Shown piece by piece: positions 2,677-17,038 of a stretch of 64,000 nucleotides of DNA (position 1 is its first letter; every line of letters begins with the position of its first letter). The position numbers and the translations under genes are program-made. A model generated the notes under the pieces. It had not been told where the DNA came from. It saw only the letters and a program-made list of their open reading frames with translations, and did no database searches. Source of the stretch: Verrucomicrobiota bacterium. GTDB lineage: Bacteria > Verrucomicrobiota > Verrucomicrobiia > Limisphaerales > UBA9464. Location: assembly GCA_947471985.1 (NCBI GenBank), contig CANIZL010000005.1:1-64000 (forward strand), written 5' to 3'.

Positions 2677-3447
2677 ATGAAAACAAAACCTCTCACAATA
2701 CTCGGTGCCCTTGGCGCGATCCTTCTGGTCATCAACGTGGTTTCGTGCAGTACCGTGACCCGAACCGTGAACCTTCCGCCGGAAATCCCCGGCGCGACCT
2801 TCATGGGATCCCAGAGCTGTGCCGAATGTCACGCCGAAAAGAACAAGCACTTTGCCGGTTCGGATCATGCCCGTCTGAAGGCTCAGGGCGCGAACGCCGA
2901 GAACGTCGGATGCGAATCATGCCACGGCCCGGCCAGCGTCCATATCAAGTCCGGCGGCGCGGCCCGCACCATCATCAATCCGCGCCAATCCCCCGAGACC
3001 TGCTACCAATGCCATCTCGACAAGCGCGGCTCCTTCAACACGGCCCATCATCATCCCCTGCAAGAGGGCAAGGTCAGCTGCGGCGACTGCCATAACCCCC
3101 ACGAAGGACGGGCAGTGAAGGGCGGCGGGACTTCCATGGCGGCCGCGAACGAAACCTGCTTCAAATGCCATACGGCCCAACGCGGTCCGTTCGTCTTCGA
3201 GCACGAAGCCCTCCGCGAAGGCTGCACCAGCTGCCACTCGCCCCACGGCTCCGTCAATCAACGGATGCTCACCGAGCGGAACCAAATCCTTTGCCTCAAG
3301 TGCCATATGCAAACCCAGGTGGCACCCGGAAAGATCATCATCGGCGGTCACGAACACACGGACGACCTGCCGCGCGGCACCTGTTGGAGTGCCGGCTGCC
3401 ATGAAGCCGTGCACGGGTCCCAGATCAATCGCTCACTTCGTTTCTAA
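2677..3447 (+). CDS. DmsE/MtrA-like multihaem c-type cytochrome, predicted lipoprotein, eight haem sites
   Basis: 256-aa protein with a short hydrophobic leader ending in a lipobox-like VVSC (Cys24), so probably a lipid-anchored periplasmic or outer-membrane-associated protein. Seven CXXCH haem motifs are present (CAECH at 48-52, then CESCH, CYQCH, CGDCH, CFKCH, CTSCH, CLKCH), plus a C-terminal CWSAGCH that matches a CX4CH variant. Family relatives (DmsE, MtrA, PioA) are usually decahaem proteins plugged into an MtrB/PioB barrel to form a transmembrane wire; this one has about eight sites. The next gene, 10 bases downstream, encodes such a barrel, which supports an MtrA-like role. Direction of electron flow (metal/oxidant reduction or Fe(II) oxidation) cannot be told from sequence. 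Confidence 0.88.
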   Translation: MKTKPLTILGALGAILLVINVVSCSTVTRTVNLPPEIPGATFMGSQSCAECHAEKNKHFAGSDHARLKAQGANAENVGCESCHGPASVHIKSGGAARTIINPRQSPETCYQCHLDKRGSFNTAHHHPLQEGKVSCGDCHNPHEGRAVKGGGTSMAAANETCFKCHTAQRGPFVFEHEALREGCTSCHSPHGSVNQRMLTERNQILCLKCHMQTQVAPGKIIIGGHEHTDDLPRGTCWSAGCHEAVHGSQINRSLRF

Positions 3448-3457
3448 CCCTTAACCC

Positions 3458-5590
3458 TTGAAAGCCGTGAAAACTAATCACGTCGTAGGAACTCCGGGCC
3501 GCCTATTGGCCGGCACGAGTGCACTGCTGCTGGGGGCCTGTCTGGCCGGAGCCCTCTCCGCAAGAGCAGCCGATGCCCCCAAACCATCCGCCCCCGGTGA
3601 CGCCGCCAGCGACGCCGACGACGCGGAATTGCTCAATTGGGTGCAGTTCGGTGTGGGCGGAAACTTCATCTCGGGCGACAAGGCCCAGTTCCAAACCCAA
3701 AAAGGCCTGCCCTCCGGCGCCTTCGGGGGCCTCGAGGGCTTCCACTTCGAGTCGCCCGTCGACAAGAAAGGCCTCTTCACCGCGGACGGCCGCGGCATGT
3801 TCGACAACCATGACTATTCGATCAAACTCGAATTGTCCCACCCCGACAAAGGCTTCATCCGCGCGGGCTACAGCCAATACCGGGTCTACTATGATGGAAT
3901 TGGCGGTTATCTCCCCTCCAATGGCCTGATTTTCCCGGGCCTCTTCGACAACCGCTTGGCCGTCGACCGCGCCCACACCTTCTTCGAAGCCGGACTCACG
4001 TTGCCCGATAAACCGGTCATCACCTTCCGGTATGATCTGGATACCCGCGACGGACTGAAGGACACGACCAGCTGGGGCCAATCCACCTTGACGCCCAAGA
4101 GCGTCCAAAAGAAGATCGTCCCCGGCTTCCGTGACCTGGACGAAACCCGCCATACCTTCTCGCTCGACGTCAAGCACGCCATCGGTAACACCGAGTTCGG
4201 TTTGGGCGGGCGCTACGAAATCCAGGCCAATGATGATCTAAAAACCATCTACCAACAACCCACGCAGGGGACAACTGCCCGCACCCTGAACCAGGCGGAG
4301 GGTGTGCACGCGGACATCGCCAATGCCCACGCGTACACGGATACCAAGCTGAACGACAAGTGGGAGTTCACCACCGGGTATTCCTTCAGCACCCTGCATT
4401 CCGTGCTGTCCGGCAGCCGTTACAATAAGGCGATCGTCACGCCGCTGTCCGCCACGGATACCCGTTTCGCCAATCTCGCCGGCGGCTCGGACCTCAACCA
4501 ATACGTGATGAATCTGAACCTCATGTACAGTCCGAGCACGAACTGGTTCATCATCCCGTCCGTGCGTGTGGAAAAGGAGGATTTGACCGGCAGCGCCACC
4601 GACAATGTGGTGACCGGGACGGCGACGCCCGTGGTTTCGCCCGCCACCCAGTTTGCCAACAATGACAAGGGATCCCTTTACGTCACGGAGGCCCTCGATC
4701 TCCGCTACGTGGGCATCACCAACTGGGCCTTTTATACCCGGGTGGAATTCTCGGAAGATCGCTCGGACCTCAGCGAACAATTCGGCACCAACATCACCAA
4801 GGCGGCCACCATCTTCCGCGACACGGAATGGAACCGCTTGCTCCAAAAGTACACCATCGGCGCGAATTGGTATCCGATCCGCAAAGCCAACTTTGGCGCC
4901 CAATACTACCACCGGATCTCGGACAACGACTACCACAACACCTTGGATTCCACGTCGAATCTCGGCACCAGTGGGGATCGCTTCCCGGGCTATCTCGGAG
5001 CGCAAAACTTTGATGTGGATGACGTCAATTTCCGGATGACGCTGCGCCCGCTGCCCTTGCTGACATTGGTCACCCGCTATGACTACCAACTCAGCACGGC
5101 GTATACGCAACCGGATCTCCTGGCCGGCATCGAAAGCGCCCGGAACCAACGCCACCTCATCGGCCAAACCATCTCCTGGACGCCGCTGAACTGGCTCGCC
5201 GTGCAAGCCAACGGCAACTACGTCCGGTCCACCACTCACAGTCCGGTGGAGGATCTGACCGGAGCCATGACGGGCGTCGTCCTCTCCGCGCCCAACAACT
5301 ACTGGACCGCCGGGCTCACCCTCGGCTTTGTGCTCGACGACAAGACGGACCTGCAAACCAGCTATTCCTACTATCGCGCCAACAACTACGTGGACAACTC
5401 GCTGGTGGGCCTGCCCTACGGCGCCGGCGCCCGGCAACACGAGGTGGGCGTGACCCTGACCCGTCGGATCTCCCGCAGCATGCGCTGGAATCTCCAATAT
5501 GCGTTCTCCAGCTATCACGATGAAACCTCCGGCGGCGCCCTGAACTACGAGGCCCACGGAATTCTCTCCTCCCTGCAATACCGCTTCTAA
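3458..5590 (+). CDS. MtrB/PioB-family outer-membrane beta-barrel of the porin-cytochrome complex
   Basis: 710-aa exported protein. A signal peptide is followed by an ARA-like cleavage site before Ala-Asp-Ala-Pro. The rest is a long series of alternating, aromatic-girdled amphipathic strands with short turns, ending in LQYRF with a C-terminal Phe, the usual BAM signal of outer-membrane barrels. Length and context match MtrB/PioB barrels, which sheathe the multihaem cytochrome. The N-terminal CXXC pair reported in some metal-reducer MtrB proteins is absent. The start is TTG at 3458 or GTG at 3467; both give a workable signal peptide. It follows the octahaem gene by 10 bases, so the two are probably co-transcribed and co-assembled. 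Confidence 0.85.
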   Translation: MKAVKTNHVVGTPGRLLAGTSALLLGACLAGALSARAADAPKPSAPGDAASDADDAELLNWVQFGVGGNFISGDKAQFQTQKGLPSGAFGGLEGFHFESPVDKKGLFTADGRGMFDNHDYSIKLELSHPDKGFIRAGYSQYRVYYDGIGGYLPSNGLIFPGLFDNRLAVDRAHTFFEAGLTLPDKPVITFRYDLDTRDGLKDTTSWGQSTLTPKSVQKKIVPGFRDLDETRHTFSLDVKHAIGNTEFGLGGRYEIQANDDLKTIYQQPTQGTTARTLNQAEGVHADIANAHAYTDTKLNDKWEFTTGYSFSTLHSVLSGSRYNKAIVTPLSATDTRFANLAGGSDLNQYVMNLNLMYSPSTNWFIIPSVRVEKEDLTGSATDNVVTGTATPVVSPATQFANNDKGSLYVTEALDLRYVGITNWAFYTRVEFSEDRSDLSEQFGTNITKAATIFRDTEWNRLLQKYTIGANWYPIRKANFGAQYYHRISDNDYHNTLDSTSNLGTSGDRFPGYLGAQNFDVDDVNFRMTLRPLPLLTLVTRYDYQLSTAYTQPDLLAGIESARNQRHLIGQTISWTPLNWLAVQANGNYVRSTTHSPVEDLTGAMTGVVLSAPNNYWTAGLTLGFVLDDKTDLQTSYSYYRANNYVDNSLVGLPYGAGARQHEVGVTLTRRISRSMRWNLQYAFSSYHDETSGGALNYEAHGILSSLQYRF

Positions 5591-5625: not shown

Positions 5626-5982
5626 ATGAAATTCCTGTTATTCTCAAACCCTCTGGTGAAACCCCTGCTCCTCGCGGCCGCCCTGGCGCCCGCCGCCCTC
5701 GCCGCGGATGCGAAGGAGAACTGGAACACCCACTGCATGGCCTGCCACGGCAAGGATGGCAAAGGCCAGACCAAGGCGGGCCGGATGGCCGGTGTGAAGG
5801 ATCAGTCCGATGCTGCTTATCAGGCCAGCCTGACTGACGAAAAGATGCTAACCTCCATCAAGGAAGGTGTGAAGGAAGGTGTGAAGGAAGGTGGCAAAGA
5901 GAAGATGAAACCCTTCAAGGACAAGCTGTCCGACGATGAGATCAAGGCACTGATCGCCCAGATCCGTTCCTTCAAGAAGTAG
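5626..5982 (+). CDS. Small periplasmic monohaem cytochrome c
   Basis: 118-aa class I cytochrome c with an N-terminal signal peptide (leader rich in Leu/Ala ending near LAADA) and one haem motif, CMACH. A Met in the C-terminal half could be the axial ligand, as expected for this fold, and the final helix (DDEIKALIAQIRSFKK) is typical. It lies 35 bases after the barrel gene. The likely role is as a soluble electron shuttle between the inner-membrane module and the octahaem/barrel complex. It carries a short tandem repeat, KEGVKEGVKEGGKE, encoded by near-perfect 12-base repeats. No downstream gene overlaps, and a strong hairpin follows at 6040-6076. Confidence 0.9.
   Translation: MKFLLFSNPLVKPLLLAAALAPAALAADAKENWNTHCMACHGKDGKGQTKAGRMAGVKDQSDAAYQASLTDEKMLTSIKEGVKEGVKEGGKEKMKPFKDKLSDDEIKALIAQIRSFKK
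5865..5895 (+). repeat. 12-base tandem repeat inside the cytochrome c gene
   Basis: About two and a half copies of a 12-base unit (GTGAAGGAAGGT) occur in phase with the reading frame and encode Val-Lys-Glu-Gly. Copy-number change would insert or delete four residues without shifting frame. The repeat sits on the surface-lysine-rich part of the cytochrome, before the C-terminal helix. Confidence 0.75.
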
Positions 5983-6250: not shown

Positions 6251-6895
6251 ATGAACACGAACGCTAAAGAATCCCTCGTCATGACGGGCTTGGCTGTTGG
6301 GTTCTTCGGGTTGGCGGGTGCGTTCGCCCTCACGTTGTGGGCCAAGCCCCTCGAACCGGTCGTGAATCCCCCCACCCCACCGGACTTCACCAACACCGCC
6401 ACGGTCCGCCAATCCCCCGCAGAAATCTATCGCACTGAGGGCGATACGTCGGGGTTCTCCTGTTACTCGTGTCACGACGCGAAGAAAAAACTGGAGATCC
6501 ACCTGGACACCAACGGCGAGGCGATTCTAGCCGAACCGCACAAGGATCTCGTCATGCGGCACGGGCGGAAGAATCGCAACGATTACTGCTTCAACTGCCA
6601 CGACGCCAAAAACCTCGAACAACTTCGGGTGAACGAGGGACAAACGTTCAAGCTCACCGAAGGAAATCGGCTGTGTGGAAGCTGCCACGGCCCAACCTAT
6701 CGGGATTGGGAACGGGGCGTCCATGGGCGGATGCAGGGCTTCTGGGATCTCAGCCGCGGTGCGAGCGCGAAATCCGACTGTACGTCCTGTCACGATCCGC
6801 ACGCCCCTTCTTTTCCCCCCATCAAACCCGGTCCGCGGCCTCACGCACTCCATCCCGAACCCGCCGCCGGCGAAACTCCCAAACACACTCCCTGA
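6251..6895 (+). CDS. Membrane-anchored tetrahaem c-type cytochrome
   Basis: 214-aa protein with an uncleaved-looking N-terminal helix (LVMTGLAVGFFGLAGAFALT) followed by a Pro-rich linker and a periplasmic domain with four haem motifs: CYSCH, CFNCH, CGSCH and CTSCH. Extra His residues between them could be distal ligands, as in bis-His multihaem proteins. ATG at 6251 is preferred over an in-frame TTG six bases earlier; an AGGG sits about 10 bases upstream of it. The stop is one base before the Fe-S protein ATG, so these are translationally linked. The likely role is to accept electrons from the Fe-S/NrfD module and pass them to periplasmic cytochromes. It resembles the haem subunits of alternative complex III-type or Nrf/Ttr-type modules in arrangement, not clearly in sequence. 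Confidence 0.85.
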   Translation: MNTNAKESLVMTGLAVGFFGLAGAFALTLWAKPLEPVVNPPTPPDFTNTATVRQSPAEIYRTEGDTSGFSCYSCHDAKKKLEIHLDTNGEAILAEPHKDLVMRHGRKNRNDYCFNCHDAKNLEQLRVNEGQTFKLTEGNRLCGSCHGPTYRDWERGVHGRMQGFWDLSRGASAKSDCTSCHDPHAPSFPPIKPGPRPHALHPEPAAGETPKHTP

Positions 6896-6896
6896 C

Positions 6897-7880
6897 ATGG
6901 CTGATCACACCTGTAATTGTGGCGGAAATGGCGCCAATTCGTGCGCCTCCGGAAAACCCAGCACCCCCGAGAGTGGCAAGGTGGATCGGCGCAGCTTTCT
7001 CCGAAAGTCGGTGGTGATGACCGCCGGCCTGGCGGCGGTCGCGGCAAGTCTGGCCCCCCTTCGTGACCTCACCGATCTGGGATCGGTCGATCAGTTCCTG
7101 CAAAAGCATTACAAGGAACTCACGCCGGCCGAGATGGAAAAGGCGCTGGAACGGATTCGCGGGGAGGTATCCCGCCAATACGGTCTGCGCCCGCACCTGC
7201 GCGATCTCAAGCCGATGGATGGCGTGGAGTTCGTCTACTGCCTCAACCTCACCCGTTGCGTCGGCTGCCGGAAATGCGTCCACGCCTGCGTGGCGGAGAA
7301 CAACCAATCCCGCAGTCCGGAAATCCAATACATCCGCGTCGTCAAAATGCCCAACGGCACTTTCGATATGGAGCGGGGTGATCATACCTACGCACCCGAA
7401 ACCGTGCCGGAGAAGGGATTCTTCTACATGCCGGTGCAATGCCACCAATGCAAAAACCCGCCCTGCGTCAAGGTGTGTCCGGTGGACGCCACCTGGCAGG
7501 AAAAGGACGGCATCACCGTCATCGACTACAACTGGTGCATTGGTTGCCGCTATTGCGAGGCCGCCTGTCCCTATTTCGCCCGGCGCTTCAATTTTGCAAC
7601 ACCGTCCATCCCCAAGGACCAGATCAATGCGAATATGTCCTATCTCGGCAATCGCCCGCGGCAAAAAGGGGTGATGGAGAAATGCCACTTCTGCATTCAA
7701 CGGACCCGGGAGGGCAAATATCCCGCGTGCCTGGAAGTCTGTCCGACCGGTTCCCGTAAATTCGGCAACATCCTCGATCCCAACAGCGAGGTCTCCTACA
7801 TCCTCAAAAACAAGCGCGTTTTTGTGCTCAAAGAGGAGGTCGGAACCTTGCCCCGCTTCTTTTACTACTTTGACGTATGA
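6897..7880 (+). CDS. Tat-exported HybA/NrfC-like ferredoxin subunit with four Fe-S clusters
   Basis: 327-aa protein with a twin-arginine motif (RRSFLRK, about residues 32-38) ahead of a hydrophobic stretch (TAGLAAVAASLAP), so it should be exported folded. Four Cys groups follow: CVGCRKCVHAC, CHQCKNPPCVKVCP, CIGCRYCEAACP and CHFC...CLEVCP, the set expected for four [4Fe-4S] clusters in the HybA/NrfC/DmsB/PsrB family. Such subunits dock on the periplasmic face of an NrfD/PsrC membrane protein. The start at 6897 is chosen because it lies one base after the tetrahaem stop; a longer frame exists but overlaps that gene. It overlaps the NrfD gene by four bases (ATGA), indicating tight coupling. No molybdopterin catalytic subunit is next to it, so the electron partner is probably a cytochrome. 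Confidence 0.92.
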   Translation: MADHTCNCGGNGANSCASGKPSTPESGKVDRRSFLRKSVVMTAGLAAVAASLAPLRDLTDLGSVDQFLQKHYKELTPAEMEKALERIRGEVSRQYGLRPHLRDLKPMDGVEFVYCLNLTRCVGCRKCVHACVAENNQSRSPEIQYIRVVKMPNGTFDMERGDHTYAPETVPEKGFFYMPVQCHQCKNPPCVKVCPVDATWQEKDGITVIDYNWCIGCRYCEAACPYFARRFNFATPSIPKDQINANMSYLGNRPRQKGVMEKCHFCIQRTREGKYPACLEVCPTGSRKFGNILDPNSEVSYILKNKRVFVLKEEVGTLPRFFYYFDV

Positions 7881-9553
7881 GCCGCGCAATTAAAGACTAC
7901 TTCACCTTCCTGTTGCGTTGCGTGCGCCTGGCCTGCGTGGGCGACTGGCGCTACTTCCTCTGGGTCGGCACGCTCTTCGCCGTCTGCCTACTGGGGGTCA
8001 ACGCCTATGCCAAGCAGTTTGTCCACGGGCTCTTCACCACGGGGATGACTGACCAGGTTTCCTGGGGCGTCTATATCGCGAACTTCACCTTCCTGGTAGG
8101 TGTCGCCGCGGCGGCGGTGATGCTGGTGATTCCCGTTTATATCTATAAGAGCGAGGAACTCCACGATCTGGTCATTTTCGGGGAGCTGCTGGCCGTATGT
8201 GCGATTCTCATGTGCCTGGCGTTTGTCACCGTGGATCTGGGGCGGCCCGACCGCTTCTGGCACATGATTCCTGGCATCGGCAAACTGAATTTCCCCCGCT
8301 CGCTGCTGAGCTGGGACGTCATCGTGCTCAACGGTTATCTGGTGCTGAATGTCTACATCTGCGCCTATCTCCTCTACTGCCGCTATCGCCGGCAGGCACC
8401 ACTGAAGTGGTTGTATCTGCCCGTGGTTTTTCTGGGCATCTTCTGGGCTGTTTCCATCCATACCGTGACCGCGTTTCTTTATGTTGGTCTGGGCGGGCGC
8501 CCGTTCTGGAACTCGTCGATCGTCGGACCTCGCTTTATCGCCTCCGCTTTCACCGCCGGTCCCGCCTTGATCATTCTGGCGCTGCAAGTCGTCCGCCGCT
8601 TCACCGCCTCGGCGCCCCATACCGGAGTCGATGTGGCCAGTGATCTCGGCCACGCCCCGAGCCGCGAAGGGACTCTGGGCGACCTCGATCTGTTGGCCCA
8701 TCACTTGCCGGAGCTCGATGCGGTTCCCGTGGAAGTGCGGCGAGCCTGTCTGGTCGGCTCCAAGGTTATCGAAGTGGGTGCGGGTGCCATGCTGCTGCGG
8801 CAAGGCGCCAAGGATGATGATGCGTATTTGATCCTCGAAGGCCGGGTGGTGGTGAAACGGGAGGAGGGCGGCCGTTTCCGGACCATTCGAACGGTGGGTC
8901 CAGGCGAACAGTTCGGCGAGGTTTCCGCGCTGAACGGCACGCCCCGGACCGCGTCGGCGATGGCCGAGACCACGACCCGGGTCTTGCAATTGCCGGCGGA
9001 ATCCCTGCGCAAGCTGATGAGGATTCCCGCAATGAATCACGCTATTCGCGAACGGATGACCGAACGGCTGATGATCGCCGACCAGGGACTTCTGACCCTG
9101 CGGAACATCGTGCAGGTCTCGATGTTGATTAATGTCTTCCTGCTCTTGAACGAGGTTTTCAAGGAGTTCTATACCGACAACCTGCACGTCGCGGCCTCCC
9201 GTTACCTCTACTTCGGATTGCATGGCCACTACGCCTTGGTTCCTTGGATTTGGTCAGCGATCGGCTGCAACCTTGTCGCCCTCGTGCTGTTGCTTTTGCC
9301 CATCAGCCGCAGTCTCTTCTGGCTGGATATCGCGTGCGTGCTCGCCATCGTGGGTATCTGGATTGAGAAGGGGATGGGACTGGTGGTTCCAGGCTTCATC
9401 CCCAGCCCGCTGGGGGAGATCGTGGAATACTCGCCCAGTCTTAACGAAACCCTGATCTGCTTCGGCATCTGGGCCTTCGGATTGCTCTGCTACACCGTGA
9501 TGCTGCGGGTGGCGGTGCCCATCCTGCAAGGTCGGTTCACCAAAAACGCCTGA
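7877..9553 (+). CDS. NrfD/PsrC-type membrane subunit with an inserted cyclic-nucleotide-binding domain
   Basis: 558-aa protein with about ten predicted helices, six before and four after an insertion. The membrane part matches the ten-helix NrfD/PsrC/HybB group that exchanges electrons with quinones. Between helix 6 (ending near residue 240) and helix 7 (starting near 413) lies a soluble CRP-type domain at about residues 265-405. It has AYLILEGRVVVK strands and a phosphate-binding cassette FGEVSALNGTPRTASA, keeping the Glu (348) and Arg (357) that contact the cyclic phosphate in cAMP/cGMP sensors. By the positive-inside rule the basic loop RRF after helix 6 is cytoplasmic, so the sensor should face the cytoplasm. 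This makes a cyclic-nucleotide-gated quinone oxidoreductase plausible; ligand and effect are inference. The gene overlaps the Fe-S subunit by four bases. Confidence 0.88.
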   Translation: MSRAIKDYFTFLLRCVRLACVGDWRYFLWVGTLFAVCLLGVNAYAKQFVHGLFTTGMTDQVSWGVYIANFTFLVGVAAAAVMLVIPVYIYKSEELHDLVIFGELLAVCAILMCLAFVTVDLGRPDRFWHMIPGIGKLNFPRSLLSWDVIVLNGYLVLNVYICAYLLYCRYRRQAPLKWLYLPVVFLGIFWAVSIHTVTAFLYVGLGGRPFWNSSIVGPRFIASAFTAGPALIILALQVVRRFTASAPHTGVDVASDLGHAPSREGTLGDLDLLAHHLPELDAVPVEVRRACLVGSKVIEVGAGAMLLRQGAKDDDAYLILEGRVVVKREEGGRFRTIRTVGPGEQFGEVSALNGTPRTASAMAETTTRVLQLPAESLRKLMRIPAMNHAIRERMTERLMIADQGLLTLRNIVQVSMLINVFLLLNEVFKEFYTDNLHVAASRYLYFGLHGHYALVPWIWSAIGCNLVALVLLLLPISRSLFWLDIACVLAIVGIWIEKGMGLVVPGFIPSPLGEIVEYSPSLNETLICFGIWAFGLLCYTVMLRVAVPILQGRFTKNA

Positions 9554-9558
9554 CTCAC

Positions 9559-9996
9559 ATGGCTTGCCAACAACTCACCGTTGAAGACGCCCGCCAATCC
9601 CTGGCGGGACACCTCGAAACCAAGGGCCAGGAGATTCACACTCGATTCGGCCCGCATCTGGGTTGGAACAAACTCCAGGAACTGCTCACGGATCGGAATT
9701 ACGTCCGTTATCCCTGCGACATCGTCTTTGACGCCGGGCCCTTGGAGCCGGGTGAGTTCGCCCACCCCGAACCCAAAGGAGAGCGTCCGGAAGAGGGTTT
9801 CAATTTGCACATCCACCCGTTCTTTATGACCCAATTGGAACGGGTGCCCTATCTGGTGCTCTACCAACTGGTGATCGTGAACTACGGGGATTTCGCCACT
9901 CCGGAGGATGCCGAAGCCTTCGGTGCCGCGGCCTTGGGCCTCTCCCCGGACGAGTACTACCACGAGATCTGCGAACTCGCCGACCAACTCGGCTGA
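9559..9996 (+). CDS. Small acidic protein of unknown function, last gene of the electron-transfer cluster
   Basis: 145-aa soluble protein, five bases after the NrfD gene and therefore probably in the same transcript. No signal peptide, helix or haem motif is visible. It is acidic, with a central HIHPFF segment followed by a hydrophobic stretch (YLVLYQLVIVNYG) and an acidic C terminus. The two His in HIHP could bind a metal, but I see no family I can name. Position suggests an assembly, maturation or regulatory partner of the membrane module, or of its cyclic-nucleotide domain. Confidence 0.7.
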   Translation: MACQQLTVEDARQSLAGHLETKGQEIHTRFGPHLGWNKLQELLTDRNYVRYPCDIVFDAGPLEPGEFAHPEPKGERPEEGFNLHIHPFFMTQLERVPYLVLYQLVIVNYGDFATPEDAEAFGAAALGLSPDEYYHEICELADQLG

Positions 9997-12955: not shown

Positions 12956-15900
12956 CTACAAGCTCTGAAGATACGCCACGATATCGGCAATCCCCCGCGC
13001 ATCCACGCCAATGGTCTCCGGCGGATACATGAGCGACCGGGTCATCTTCTTCACCGAGACAATCCGCGCCTGCGGCACGGTCTGCACCAGGCCGCCCATG
13101 CACTTGATGATGAGCGGATCACCGGTCGACAGCACCATGCCCGTGATGGTTAGACCATCCTTCGTCTTCACTTCACTGCCCTCGAAGCCGTGGGAAATGG
13201 TGGCGGACGGTTGCGCGATGGCCTGCACGAGGACCTCCCGGGTCTGCTGTTTGCCAAAGGTGGTGAGCGCCGGTCCAAACTCCACGCCGACGTTGCCGAG
13301 GCGGTGACAGACCGTGCACGACGACGTCGCCAGTTGCTGGCCGCGCGCCACGTTGCCGGTCAACTTTAGGATCTCGGCCACCGACGGAAGCTTGGGCGCG
13401 TCCGTCCGTTCGGCCGGCATCTCCACGCCGACCAGTTCCACCTTCTCCGGGTCATAGATCCCCAGCGCCTTCATGCCGGCGTCGACATCGAACTGTTGCC
13501 AGTCGTTGCCTTTGCGGTTCAACAACCACCACTTCGCCAGGTCCTGAAACGGCGTGTCCTTGGAATGGGCGATTTCAATCATCGCGCCAGCCGCGTACCG
13601 CGTCGGCACAAACGCCAGCGCCGTCAGCATGAGCTTGCGTTGATCGGTGGACAGTTTGGTGGAAAGAACGCGGGTCTTGAAATCAGCCACCGCCTCCTCC
13701 GGATGCAACCGCCAAGCCAGCCAGGCAAAGGCATCGGTCCAACCCTCCGCCTTGCCGCCCAGGGATTTTGCCAGAGCGGCATAAACTTCGCGTTCCTTGC
13801 CCTGACAGCCGAGCCCGAAGGCCTCGAGATAGGTGCGATCCTTGCCGTCGAATTGCCGCGCGAGCTTCACGAGCGTGGGAACACTCTTGGCCGCGGGAAC
13901 ATCGCGCAGGGTCACCGCTACTTCCCGACGGATCGCCGGCGACGAGTCGTCCGCCATCCGCTGAGCCATCGCGAGCACGTTGAATTCGGCGCGACGCAGC
14001 GCCCGGTAGGCGACCAGTCGCTGGGTGGCATCGGCCGACCGCAGCAGCGGAGTCACCTTCGCCCGGCCGGCCTCACCCATTTGCGCCAGGAGCCACACGG
14101 CCCGAGCCGCAATGTAGGGATTCTCGTCCTTGAGCAGGGCCGCCACGGCGGGCACCGCCGCCGCACCTTTTTGACGCAGCCGCTCAAAGCCCGTGGACCG
14201 GAGGTTCGCCGCCGGACTCTTGAGCGCGGCGATCTGACCTTCCAGCGTCTGCAGATTCAACTTCGGAACGCGGGACTTGAAGCCCTTCGGAGCAATCCGG
14301 TAGATCGATCCGTTGTATCCATTGTCCCGCGTCGCGTGTCCGCCAACCCCGGCATCAAACCAGTCCGCGACATAAATCGCCCCGTCCGGCCCGACACAGA
14401 CATCGCTGGGACGGAACATCGTCTTGAGTTCACCGGTCGCCCGGCCACCCAGGAAGTCGGAACCCGCCCATTGCCGTTCGCGGTTGGACGTCAGGAAGTC
14501 GATCCGCTCCAACTTGAACCCGGCACCGTCCGGCTTGGGCAGGTAGCCAAAGACCACATTCTTGCCCGCCTCACACGCCAGCAGCAGGCCGCGCCACTTG
14601 TCGCCGAGGGCGCCATTTTCATAAAACGCCACGCCCGTGGGCGAACCGCCACCATAAACATCACCCGCCGGCATCGTGCCCGGATCCTCCTGCCGCCACT
14701 CGGCGATGGGCGTGCTCTGACCCGGACGCCGATCCGCCTCCCAAGCGCGCTTGCCGTCCGCCGAGGCAAAGCCCGCGTTGCCCCCTTCGAGGACCGGGGT
14801 CACGCGGCACGCCGGCGGATCATCGTTGTCGCTTTGGAAAATGTCGCCCAACGAGGTGATCGTCTGCTCGTAGCTGTTGCGATAATTATGTCCGAGGATG
14901 CGAACTTGCGAACCATCCGGATTCATCCGGGCGCTGAAACCACCAATCCACACCTTCCCGTCATCGCTCTTCTGTCCGGCAATCTCCGACATCATATACG
15001 GACTGCCCATGCGGAAGGTCTTCCCGGATTTGTCGGTGAATTTCGCCCCGGTGTTGCCCTGATTCCAGTACCACTGGCCATCGGGTCCCGCGGTAACGCT
15101 GTGCAGGCTGTGATCATGCTGCCGACCGCCGAAACCCGTCAGCAACACCTCACGCTTATCCACCGCACCATCGAATTTCCCGTCCCGGTTCACATCGGTG
15201 TAAACAATCATGTCCGGCGGTTGCGACACGACGATGCGATTGTCGAACACCGCCACACCCAGCGGCGACGCCAGAGCCGGCTCCTGAACGAACACCGTGC
15301 TCTTGTCCGCCTTGCCCGCGCCCGTGGTGTCTTCCAGGACCACAATCCGATCGCCCTCGGGACGCCGCCCCGCTTTGCCGCGGTAATTGACGCCCTCGGC
15401 GACGTAGAGCCGCCCCTGGTCGTCGAAGTCCATGTTGGTCGGATTGAACAGCAGCGGCGACGTGGCCCAAAGCGTGACCTCCAAATCCTCCGGCGCGGCG
15501 AACATGTCCGGCGGCACGAACGGCGGTCCTTCCACCAGAGTCTCGGCCCGACCGGCCGCCGGCCGCACCAGACCGGCGGGCCGCTCCGTGTAAACCTGGA
15601 ACTTCAATGCGGCATCGCTCGGAGCACCGCCCCGGACCATGCCCCCGTCATCAATCGCCACCCGGGCCTGGAATCGCTCCGCGCCAGCGGGCAGTTCGTA
15701 AGCAATCACCGAGGTGGCGTGAGTGCCCAAACCCTGGGTGTACGTCTTGCCGTCCACTTGGAGCGGTCCCCCGCCACTCGCCTTGCCGCGGCGCACCTCG
15801 GCATATCCGGCAAAGGCGGACTTCCATGACAAGGTGGTCACGTCCCGGGTGGTGCCGTCCGCGAAAACCAGCTTCGGTTCAATCCAATCCGCCCAGTCGC

Positions 15901-17038
15901 AGCTGATGGAATCCAGTTCCGCCACCACGAGGTACAATTCCCGCGCGCCCTTCACCGAGACATCGACGTCCACCCAACGGGATTTGGATTGGGCGGTCAG
16001 CACCGGGGATTCAAAGATCGGCTTGGGGGCCTTGCCCGCGGCGGCGGGCGGAGTCGCCGGTTTCGCGGCGGGTTGGCCGAAGCCCTTCTCCCGTTCCGTC
16101 TGCACCGCGGCCGTGGGGATCGCGGCAAATTCACCGGACACGGGCACTTTCAAACGCTTCGGCGTCCCACCCTTGGGGTCCAGATTGGCGTTCAATTCAT
16201 CCTCCGTCACCGCCCGCGATTTCACCCCGTTCGCCGGCACTTCCATCCCGGCCGTCCAGACGATCGCATTCAGCACCAGCGTGCGGAAACCATCCACCGC
16301 CCAATTGCGATGATAATGCCCGCCGGTGAAGCCCACCCCACGACCGCCATCGGGACGTTGGATGCCCCACATCAGCGTCTGCGTCTTATCCAGGCCCGCG
16401 ACGCCATGTTCGTTCCAGAGATTGATGTATTGCTTGATCCGCTCCCGCGTGGGCGTCGCCGTCACCAAATCCAACACCTGCGACGGATCCTTCGGAAACC
16501 GCATGTGGTAGTAAAATTCATCATACGCCTGCACCATCGACGCCACACCGCGGGATACCGGATGGTTGGGCAGCGCGTGCAGATCGGCCACCCAATGGGG
16601 ATTCACCGACCAACCCTCTTCAAAGGCCCCGCCAATCCACGGGCGATAATACTTCTCACCCTCCTCGGGCGACGGATGCACGGCGTAGTGCAGGAACAGG
16701 ATGCCCACGCCCTTCTTCGCCAGCGCATCGACCTTGGCCCAACCATGCCCCACCACGCTGGTGCCATCCGCGTAGATCACCAATTCCTGGATACCATCGA
16801 GCACCGACTCGTCCTTGGGCCAGCCCTGAACCACGGTGGCCTGCACATCCAATCCGCTCTGCTCGTTGAGCGCCCGGGCGAGCAATTGACAGCCGGCATT
16901 GAATTCGTGCTCCCCGGGACCGTGACTGCGGCCCCCGGCCAGGAAGACGATCTTGTTCGCGGCCTCGGCGGCCGACATCAGCGCCAAGGCGGCAATGATG
17001 CCAAAGCCCCGGCGAAAGGAATTCTGAAACTTGAACAT
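12956..17038 (-). CDS. Giant ThuA + NPCBM + PVC-type dehydrogenase + HEAT + cytochrome c fusion
   Basis: 1360-aa exported protein. After a signal peptide (IIAALALMSAAEA) a ThuA-like domain occupies about residues 27-260. A Pro/Ala linker leads to an NPCBM-like carbohydrate-binding region (~365-490: WVDVDVSVKGARELYL, GLGTHATSVI). Residues ~510-930 match the 'PVC-type membrane-bound dehydrogenase' beta-propeller (FNPTNMDFDDQGRLYVAEG, DRIVVLEDTTGAGKAD). HEAT-like helical repeats fill ~950-1220 and a C-terminal cytochrome c domain has CTVCH at 1241-1245. Such multi-domain proteins are typical of Planctomycetes and Verrucomicrobia and are thought to oxidise sugars or related compounds with the haem as electron acceptor; substrate here is unknown. 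A haem protein would need the cytochrome maturation system found at the left end of the window. Confidence 0.9.
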   Translation of the reverse strand: MFKFQNSFRRGFGIIAALALMSAAEAANKIVFLAGGRSHGPGEHEFNAGCQLLARALNEQSGLDVQATVVQGWPKDESVLDGIQELVIYADGTSVVGHGWAKVDALAKKGVGILFLHYAVHPSPEEGEKYYRPWIGGAFEEGWSVNPHWVADLHALPNHPVSRGVASMVQAYDEFYYHMRFPKDPSQVLDLVTATPTRERIKQYINLWNEHGVAGLDKTQTLMWGIQRPDGGRGVGFTGGHYHRNWAVDGFRTLVLNAIVWTAGMEVPANGVKSRAVTEDELNANLDPKGGTPKRLKVPVSGEFAAIPTAAVQTEREKGFGQPAAKPATPPAAAGKAPKPIFESPVLTAQSKSRWVDVDVSVKGARELYLVVAELDSISCDWADWIEPKLVFADGTTRDVTTLSWKSAFAGYAEVRRGKASGGGPLQVDGKTYTQGLGTHATSVIAYELPAGAERFQARVAIDDGGMVRGGAPSDAALKFQVYTERPAGLVRPAAGRAETLVEGPPFVPPDMFAAPEDLEVTLWATSPLLFNPTNMDFDDQGRLYVAEGVNYRGKAGRRPEGDRIVVLEDTTGAGKADKSTVFVQEPALASPLGVAVFDNRIVVSQPPDMIVYTDVNRDGKFDGAVDKREVLLTGFGGRQHDHSLHSVTAGPDGQWYWNQGNTGAKFTDKSGKTFRMGSPYMMSEIAGQKSDDGKVWIGGFSARMNPDGSQVRILGHNYRNSYEQTITSLGDIFQSDNDDPPACRVTPVLEGGNAGFASADGKRAWEADRRPGQSTPIAEWRQEDPGTMPAGDVYGGGSPTGVAFYENGALGDKWRGLLLACEAGKNVVFGYLPKPDGAGFKLERIDFLTSNRERQWAGSDFLGGRATGELKTMFRPSDVCVGPDGAIYVADWFDAGVGGHATRDNGYNGSIYRIAPKGFKSRVPKLNLQTLEGQIAALKSPAANLRSTGFERLRQKGAAAVPAVAALLKDENPYIAARAVWLLAQMGEAGRAKVTPLLRSADATQRLVAYRALRRAEFNVLAMAQRMADDSSPAIRREVAVTLRDVPAAKSVPTLVKLARQFDGKDRTYLEAFGLGCQGKEREVYAALAKSLGGKAEGWTDAFAWLAWRLHPEEAVADFKTRVLSTKLSTDQRKLMLTALAFVPTRYAAGAMIEIAHSKDTPFQDLAKWWLLNRKGNDWQQFDVDAGMKALGIYDPEKVELVGVEMPAERTDAPKLPSVAEILKLTGNVARGQQLATSSCTVCHRLGNVGVEFGPALTTFGKQQTREVLVQAIAQPSATISHGFEGSEVKTKDGLTITGMVLSTGDPLIIKCMGGLVQTVPQARIVSVKKMTRSLMYPPETIGVDARGIADIVAYLQSL

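Follow-up and report, generated by a model that had tools for sequence, protein, structure and literature searches.

A cyclic-nucleotide-binding domain in a cytoplasmic loop of an NrfD/DsrP-type quinone oxidoreductase subunit of Verrucomicrobiota: possible control of electron export by a signalling molecule

What would a cyclic-nucleotide-binding (CNB) domain be doing in the middle of a membrane protein that is predicted to handle quinones? Respiratory chains answer cAMP via transcription (through CRP), and we know of no case of a second-messenger receptor residing inside a quinone-handling subunit. The window analyzed here, i.e., the whole 64,000-nucleotide stretch of DNA from a Verrucomicrobiota bacterium, raises exactly this question, and the best explanation that sequences and structural models suggest, held by us at a probability of about 0.55, is that the product would be the quinol dehydrogenase of an electron export pathway, with its CNB domain tuned by cAMP or cGMP. 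The features needed for the argument are as follows:

2677..3447, +, MtrA/DmsE-like multihaem cytochrome, 7 CXXCH plus one CX4CH making 8 sites (profiles, PDB sequence match)
3458..5590, +, outer-membrane porin-like protein, 710 aa, with a signal peptide and a C-terminal Phe, partner of the octahaem cytochrome (features and neighbourhood)
5626..5982, +, periplasmic mono-haem cytochrome c
6251..6895, +, membrane-anchored tetrahaem cytochrome c (4 CXXCH) in a DsrJ-like position
6897..7880, +, DsrO-like periplasmic 4x[4Fe-4S] ferredoxin subunit with a twin-arginine signal (DRRSFLRKS), its stop overlapping the DsrP start
7877..9553, +, NrfD/DsrP-type quinone oxidoreductase subunit with an inserted CNB domain, 558 aa (Pfam, NCBIfam, AlphaFold2, fold match)
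7877..8605, +, residues 1-243 of it, N-terminal amphipathic helix and helices 1-6 (24-53, 63-82, 94-121, 146-170, 177-204, 218-243; AlphaFold2, ActC match; flank boundary from empty-site relatives)
8606..8674, +, residues 244-266, poorly conserved linker
8675..9076, +, residues 267-400 (about 262-398 by the overall estimate, about 262-394 in the AlphaFold2 model), CNB domain (N-terminal helices, beta barrel, C-helix) in the helix 6-7 cytoplasmic loop (Pfam, structure, topology)
8912..8959, +, phosphate-binding cassette F346-G-E348-V-S-A-L-N-G-T-P-R357-T-A-S-A361 (alignment, conservation in 43 proteins)
8918-8920 and 8945-8947, +, cassette codons of Glu348 and Arg357, respectively
9077..9544, +, residues 401-556, membrane helices 7-10 (402-432, 455-473, 480-498, 522-550; AlphaFold2, ActC match)
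9559..9996, +, conserved 145-aa partner of unknown family, directly 3' of DsrP in almost every relative, whether insert-bearing or insert-free

The open reading frame at 7877-9553 is uninterrupted, with its frame and coordinates confirmed, and its product matches Pfam NrfD (PF03916) over residues 55-247 (E 7.7e-38, 131 bits against a curated cut-off of 25.8) as well as the NCBIfam DsrP equivalog NF045798 (399.6 bits against a cut-off of 350), the latter match coming in two stretches with the insert between them. An AlphaFold2 model built with 54 related sequences (mean pLDDT 77, the blocks of the CNB domain mostly at 82-93) has ten membrane helices with the CNB domain between helices 6 and 7, and its membrane part resembles ActC of alternative complex III (Z 30 over 354 residues) and PsrC (Z 15.8). 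Two four-helix bundles and two extra helices, making ten, are what characterizes the NrfD family (PMC8076601), and the same count follows here from the modelled helices and the ActC match; the periplasmic 4x[4Fe-4S] genetic partner of the family is likewise present, as the overlapping DsrO-like gene, whose product bears a Tat motif. An NrfD/DsrP-type quinone oxidoreductase subunit with predicted quinone handling is, on these profiles and models, a well-supported assignment, and the ten-helix NrfD/PsrC core that a preliminary description had read from the letters alone is borne out, as is, by the structure prediction it had proposed as a check, the CNB fold between helices 6 and 7.

NrfD-like proteins of ten helices have their N-terminus inside, and their quinone site lies close to the periplasmic surface, next to the Fe-S subunit (PMC8076601); the frequency of Lys plus Arg per residue in the family of the window DsrP (0.16 in loops predicted inside, 0.05 in those predicted outside) agrees with the same orientation. 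A cytoplasmic CNB domain, across the membrane from the Tat-exported Fe-S partner, is thereby well supported by prediction, just as had been proposed from the positive-inside rule; the Fe-S subunit, then too described as Tat-exported, does bear a twin-arginine motif. ActC and PsrC, as NrfD-like subunits (PMC8076601), share the fold and the periplasmic-side quinone site, but both are devoid of any cytoplasmic sensor domain.

The insert itself matches Pfam cNMP_binding (PF00027) over residues 299-382, far above the curated cut-off (E 3e-20), and its model resembles solved ligand-binding CNB domains at Z of about 16 (16.6 for the ligand domain of MloK1). Glu348 and Arg357 align with Glu200 and Arg209 of PKA RI-alpha at identical spacing, and the FGE-x(8)-R cassette, whose canonical form in CNB domains is given in PMC2246266, retains its Glu and Arg in all 43 of the insert-bearing proteins that constitute our conservation set, so the complete CNB domain with an intact cassette that was claimed for this protein holds up. 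Its description as “CRP-like” is loose: the nearest solved relatives by sequence are the CNB domains of PKA RI, PKG and Epac, all cAMP or cGMP binders, and the insert has no DNA-binding part. MloK1/SthK/HCN channels and the bacterial mechanosensitive-channel-CNB fusions (PMC2246266) have the same fold and cassette tied to a helix bundle on the cytoplasmic side, although there the domain is C-terminal, whereas here it lies inside a respiratory quinone oxidoreductase subunit. No description of such an NrfD-CNB protein was found in the literature searched (most subscription journals being outside it), where NrfD and CNB terms co-occur in a single paper and there for unrelated genes, in line with the preliminary description, which was aware of no such system.

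When 84,980 species were scanned, each represented by one genome, at least 552 relatives came up. Of the best 80, which were kept, 47 have a junction spanned by the insert, a further one is a fragment ending inside the insert, and 32 are without it, all belonging to Verrucomicrobiota wherever the sequence can be placed. The spacing between the same flanking residues, counted over all fetched loci (some genomes contributing two), is strictly bimodal and always in frame: 462-495 bp at 57 loci and exactly 12 bp at 59, which excludes chance or artefact; an assembly or frameshift error in the window, in particular, is rejected, since 47 other species-level genomes of Verrucomicrobiota have the same in-frame insert at that very site. 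The domain architecture of this protein and its conservation are thus well supported. (Metagenome-assembled genomes titled Klebsiella pneumoniae, Akkermansia muciniphila or Proteobacteria (L060, L103, L105, L056) carry the Verrucomicrobiota locus, and these titles look wrong. The species with the insert are represented here by metagenome-assembled genomes only. The closest among the matches listed, L026 (G376:C32:6913-8580, 81%), has one in-frame TAG and is either a pseudogene or an assembly error.)

In a sample of the whole Verrucomicrobiota phylum the insert is confined to the window's class, and the more distant relatives in the host-protein comparison are all insert-free. Close insert-free relatives are 70-80% identical in the flanks and have a clean 12-bp empty site, thus providing a natural model of domain deletion. 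In a tree of the host proteins with the insert removed, the insert-bearing ones require 8-9 label changes, at least five of which are forced by well-supported branches, and a single insert-bearing host clade is rejected (AU p = 0.01, under one model and for a group named after a quick tree and before the careful one), while the inserted CNB domains form one clade against 16 other CNB domains of the same genomes (99%, by a quick method). As the inserted domains are of one clade and their hosts are not, the simplest reading of these sequences is that the domain probably entered once and was then repeatedly lost or exchanged by allele replacement.

Such a history might also be expected of a tolerated passenger in a permissive loop, which would have no regulatory function and would repeatedly be in the course of being lost, and no neighbouring gene clearly tracks with the insert either. 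A passenger would, however, decay as the linker does, and the CNB core does not: it is under purifying selection while the linker drifts, as dN/dS over eight species pairs amounts to 0.06-0.24 in the core and 0.14-0.94 in the linker, and mean column identity among the 43 proteins to 0.75 and 0.42, respectively (0.87-0.89 in the membrane parts). Ten positions (E348, R357, G343, F346, G347, S350, L352, A361, Q309 and G310) are invariant in 43 of 43 proteins, the cassette being kept over an old and wide group. We consider the passenger explanation improbable; low core dN/dS together with an invariant cassette points to a domain kept by selection, above all at its predicted ligand site.

How selection on that site might relate to electron transfer is best seen by following the electrons. 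The complex would act as the inner-membrane quinol dehydrogenase of a Verrucomicrobiota electron export pathway, with the NrfD/DsrP core oxidizing menaquinol on its periplasmic side (the direction of flow, unreadable from sequence, is our assumption) and electrons passing to the Tat-exported DsrO Fe-S subunit, next to the membrane-bound tetrahaem protein and the small cytochromes c, and finally to the octahaem-porin conduit. The CNB domain, presumably acquired once, would sit on the cytoplasmic side, in the loop that joins helices 6 and 7 of the ten (with which the second four-helix bundle begins), where cAMP (or cGMP) bound at Glu348/Arg357 would most likely move its C-helix. In the model this C-helix meets helix 7 after about seven residues, the 394-402 joint being of low confidence, and its movement would alter helix 6/7 and hence quinol turnover or ion coupling, the outcome being fast post-translational control of electron export. 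For the identity of the ligand and for gating the odds are about even, and the claim in its full breadth, that in a large group of Verrucomicrobiota cAMP/cGMP binds directly to a quinol dehydrogenase's membrane subunit and turns electron export, possibly towards extracellular acceptors, on or off with no transcriptional step, is put, judging from the sequences compared, slightly short of an even chance. Against gating stands the fact that many close relatives function without a CNB domain beside the same neighbours. Class III cyclases were found in 25 of 25 genomes tested and are equally present in insert-free ones, which makes cAMP supply uninformative as a discriminator. If the reading is true, a signalling molecule would exert direct, fast control over electron flow via the quinone-handling subunit, and cells of many Verrucomicrobiota may be able to adjust respiration directly in this manner.

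Would the ligand have to be a cyclic nucleotide at all? The insert could have a nucleoside, a different nucleotide or some metabolite as its ligand and still regulate the complex, as there are CNB folds that bind haem or chlorophenolacetic acid (reviewed in PMC2246266), a nucleoside-responsive PKA is reported in PMC10959531, and position 358, which follows the cassette Arg, varies (T, M, V, A, L) among the 43 proteins. This is quite unlikely in our view, since these exceptions alter the cassette Arg or Glu, both of which are invariant in the insert. The nucleoside-responsive PKA is itself a case of a changed cassette Arg or Glu. FNR- or CooA-type sensing is not indicated, as the insert has no conserved Cys and its His276 is only moderately conserved (26 of 43).

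A different doubt concerns whether the domain senses anything. In cAMP binders, a residue of the PKA Gly169 type is co-conserved with the cassette Arg (Kannan et al., PMC2246266); the corresponding position in the beta2-beta3 loop is Asp313 in the window protein and Gly in only 6 of 43, so allostery may take another route than in PKA. The same deviation could also speak for a ligand-independent scaffold, which would dimerize the complex or dock a cytoplasmic partner such as the 145-aa neighbour. CNB barrels of other proteins are known to do both, and the gene for that neighbour adjoins DsrP in nearly all loci. It is, however, found just as readily beside insert-free DsrP (nearby in 10 of 14 such loci and in 18 of 28 insert-bearing ones), and the conservation of the insert peaks at the phosphate-binding cassette, with its unvarying Glu and Arg, and not at a surface helix, for which reasons a mere scaffold seems unlikely. 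The 145-aa protein itself gave no Pfam, NCBIfam or PADLOC match and no PDB fold match, its AlphaFold2 model having a pLDDT of 91.

Cyclic-nucleotide control of a quinol dehydrogenase remains our preferred reading, and among the closest known relatives of the complex is the DsrJ-DsrO-DsrP part of DsrMKJOP (NF045798/NF045797), with which it shares the DsrP equivalog above its cut-off, gene order, a Tat-exported Fe-S DsrO, an anchored multihaem cytochrome c, and ten helices. It differs by the CNB domain in the helix 6-7 loop and by a tetrahaem cytochrome in place of the trihaem one, and its DsrO scores 169 on the DsrO profile, whose cut-off is 200 (NCBIfam). No dsrA above cut-off was found in the window genome or in nine other insert-bearing genomes, so that, for the window genome, the sulfite-reduction role suggested by the DsrP name is rejected and does not carry over. 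(Only one insert-bearing genome, G110, has a dsrA-like gene pair at 329 bits, under the cut-off of 393, with a separate, divergent insert-free DsrP nearby (C14:49585-51752, C14:56453-57115; L164, L156).)

The order tetrahaem-DsrO-DsrP is conserved in relatives, the tetrahaem gene at 6251-6895 having been absent from the finding of the preliminary description, whose multihaem porin pathway next door is confirmed by the octahaem and porin-like genes upstream. The octahaem protein matches PDB chain 6r2q_A (E 2.4e-32), which we take to be the MtrA chain, the file carrying another name. The porin-like protein has no Pfam or PDB sequence match, and its gene is kept beside the octahaem gene in relatives. 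A porin gene adjoining an MtrA/DmsE-like cytochrome is found at 2677-5590, the porin being assigned by features and neighbourhood. Freshwater and soil Verrucomicrobia were shown to have clusters with a porin beside a periplasmic cytochrome with eight haem sites, for which extracellular electron transfer was proposed (He et al., 2017, PMC5615132), and the window operon shares both components; the main text of that paper does not contain the term “NrfD”, and in its figure the step at the inner membrane bears no label but “ET in IM”. If true, our reading would put a name to this step, which is missing from the pathway proposed for Verrucomicrobia of humic lakes and soil. The octahaem protein is present in 18 of 19 genomes with the window's DsrP clade versus 11 of 24 without it (p = 0.0008, not corrected for kinship).

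The insert, on the other hand, does not go with these neighbours. Whether NrfD-CNB proteins all sit beside porin-cytochrome genes had been suggested as a check, and they do not: a porin is nearby in 13 of 28 insert-bearing and 8 of 14 insert-free loci (p = 0.74), and insert-free DsrP relatives also occur with the same octahaem conduit. With porin proximity being the same either way, the CNB domain is an add-on to the complex and no mark of the porin pathway.

Other neighbourhoods show further variety. Loci L055, L061, L094 and L118 have a second NrfD, a NapC/NirT-type hexahaem protein and multihaem proteins as neighbours, the one profiled (from L120) having a cytochrome b561 domain; such a set resembles the several quinol dehydrogenases that iron-reducing bacteria have. 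Only a weak tendency (p = 0.09) links a second NrfD next door to insert status, and NapC-type hexahaem proteins are commoner beside insert-free copies (p = 0.02, uncorrected over several tests). On the Flammeovirga kamogawensis plasmid NZ_CP076130.1 (L166), an insert-free homologue lies in an operon of NapD, molybdopterin oxidoreductase, cytochrome c3, Fe-S protein and DsrP, which suggests that in Bacteroidota an NrfD-type quinol dehydrogenase serves the periplasmic nitrate reductase and would agree with proteins of this kind supplying periplasmic cytochromes with electrons from quinol more generally. Farther along the window, at 12956-17038 on the minus strand, there is a gene for a large PVC-type haem-binding protein (TIGR02604/TIGR02603, with ThuA and NPCBM domains), of a kind typical of Planctomycetes and Verrucomicrobia.
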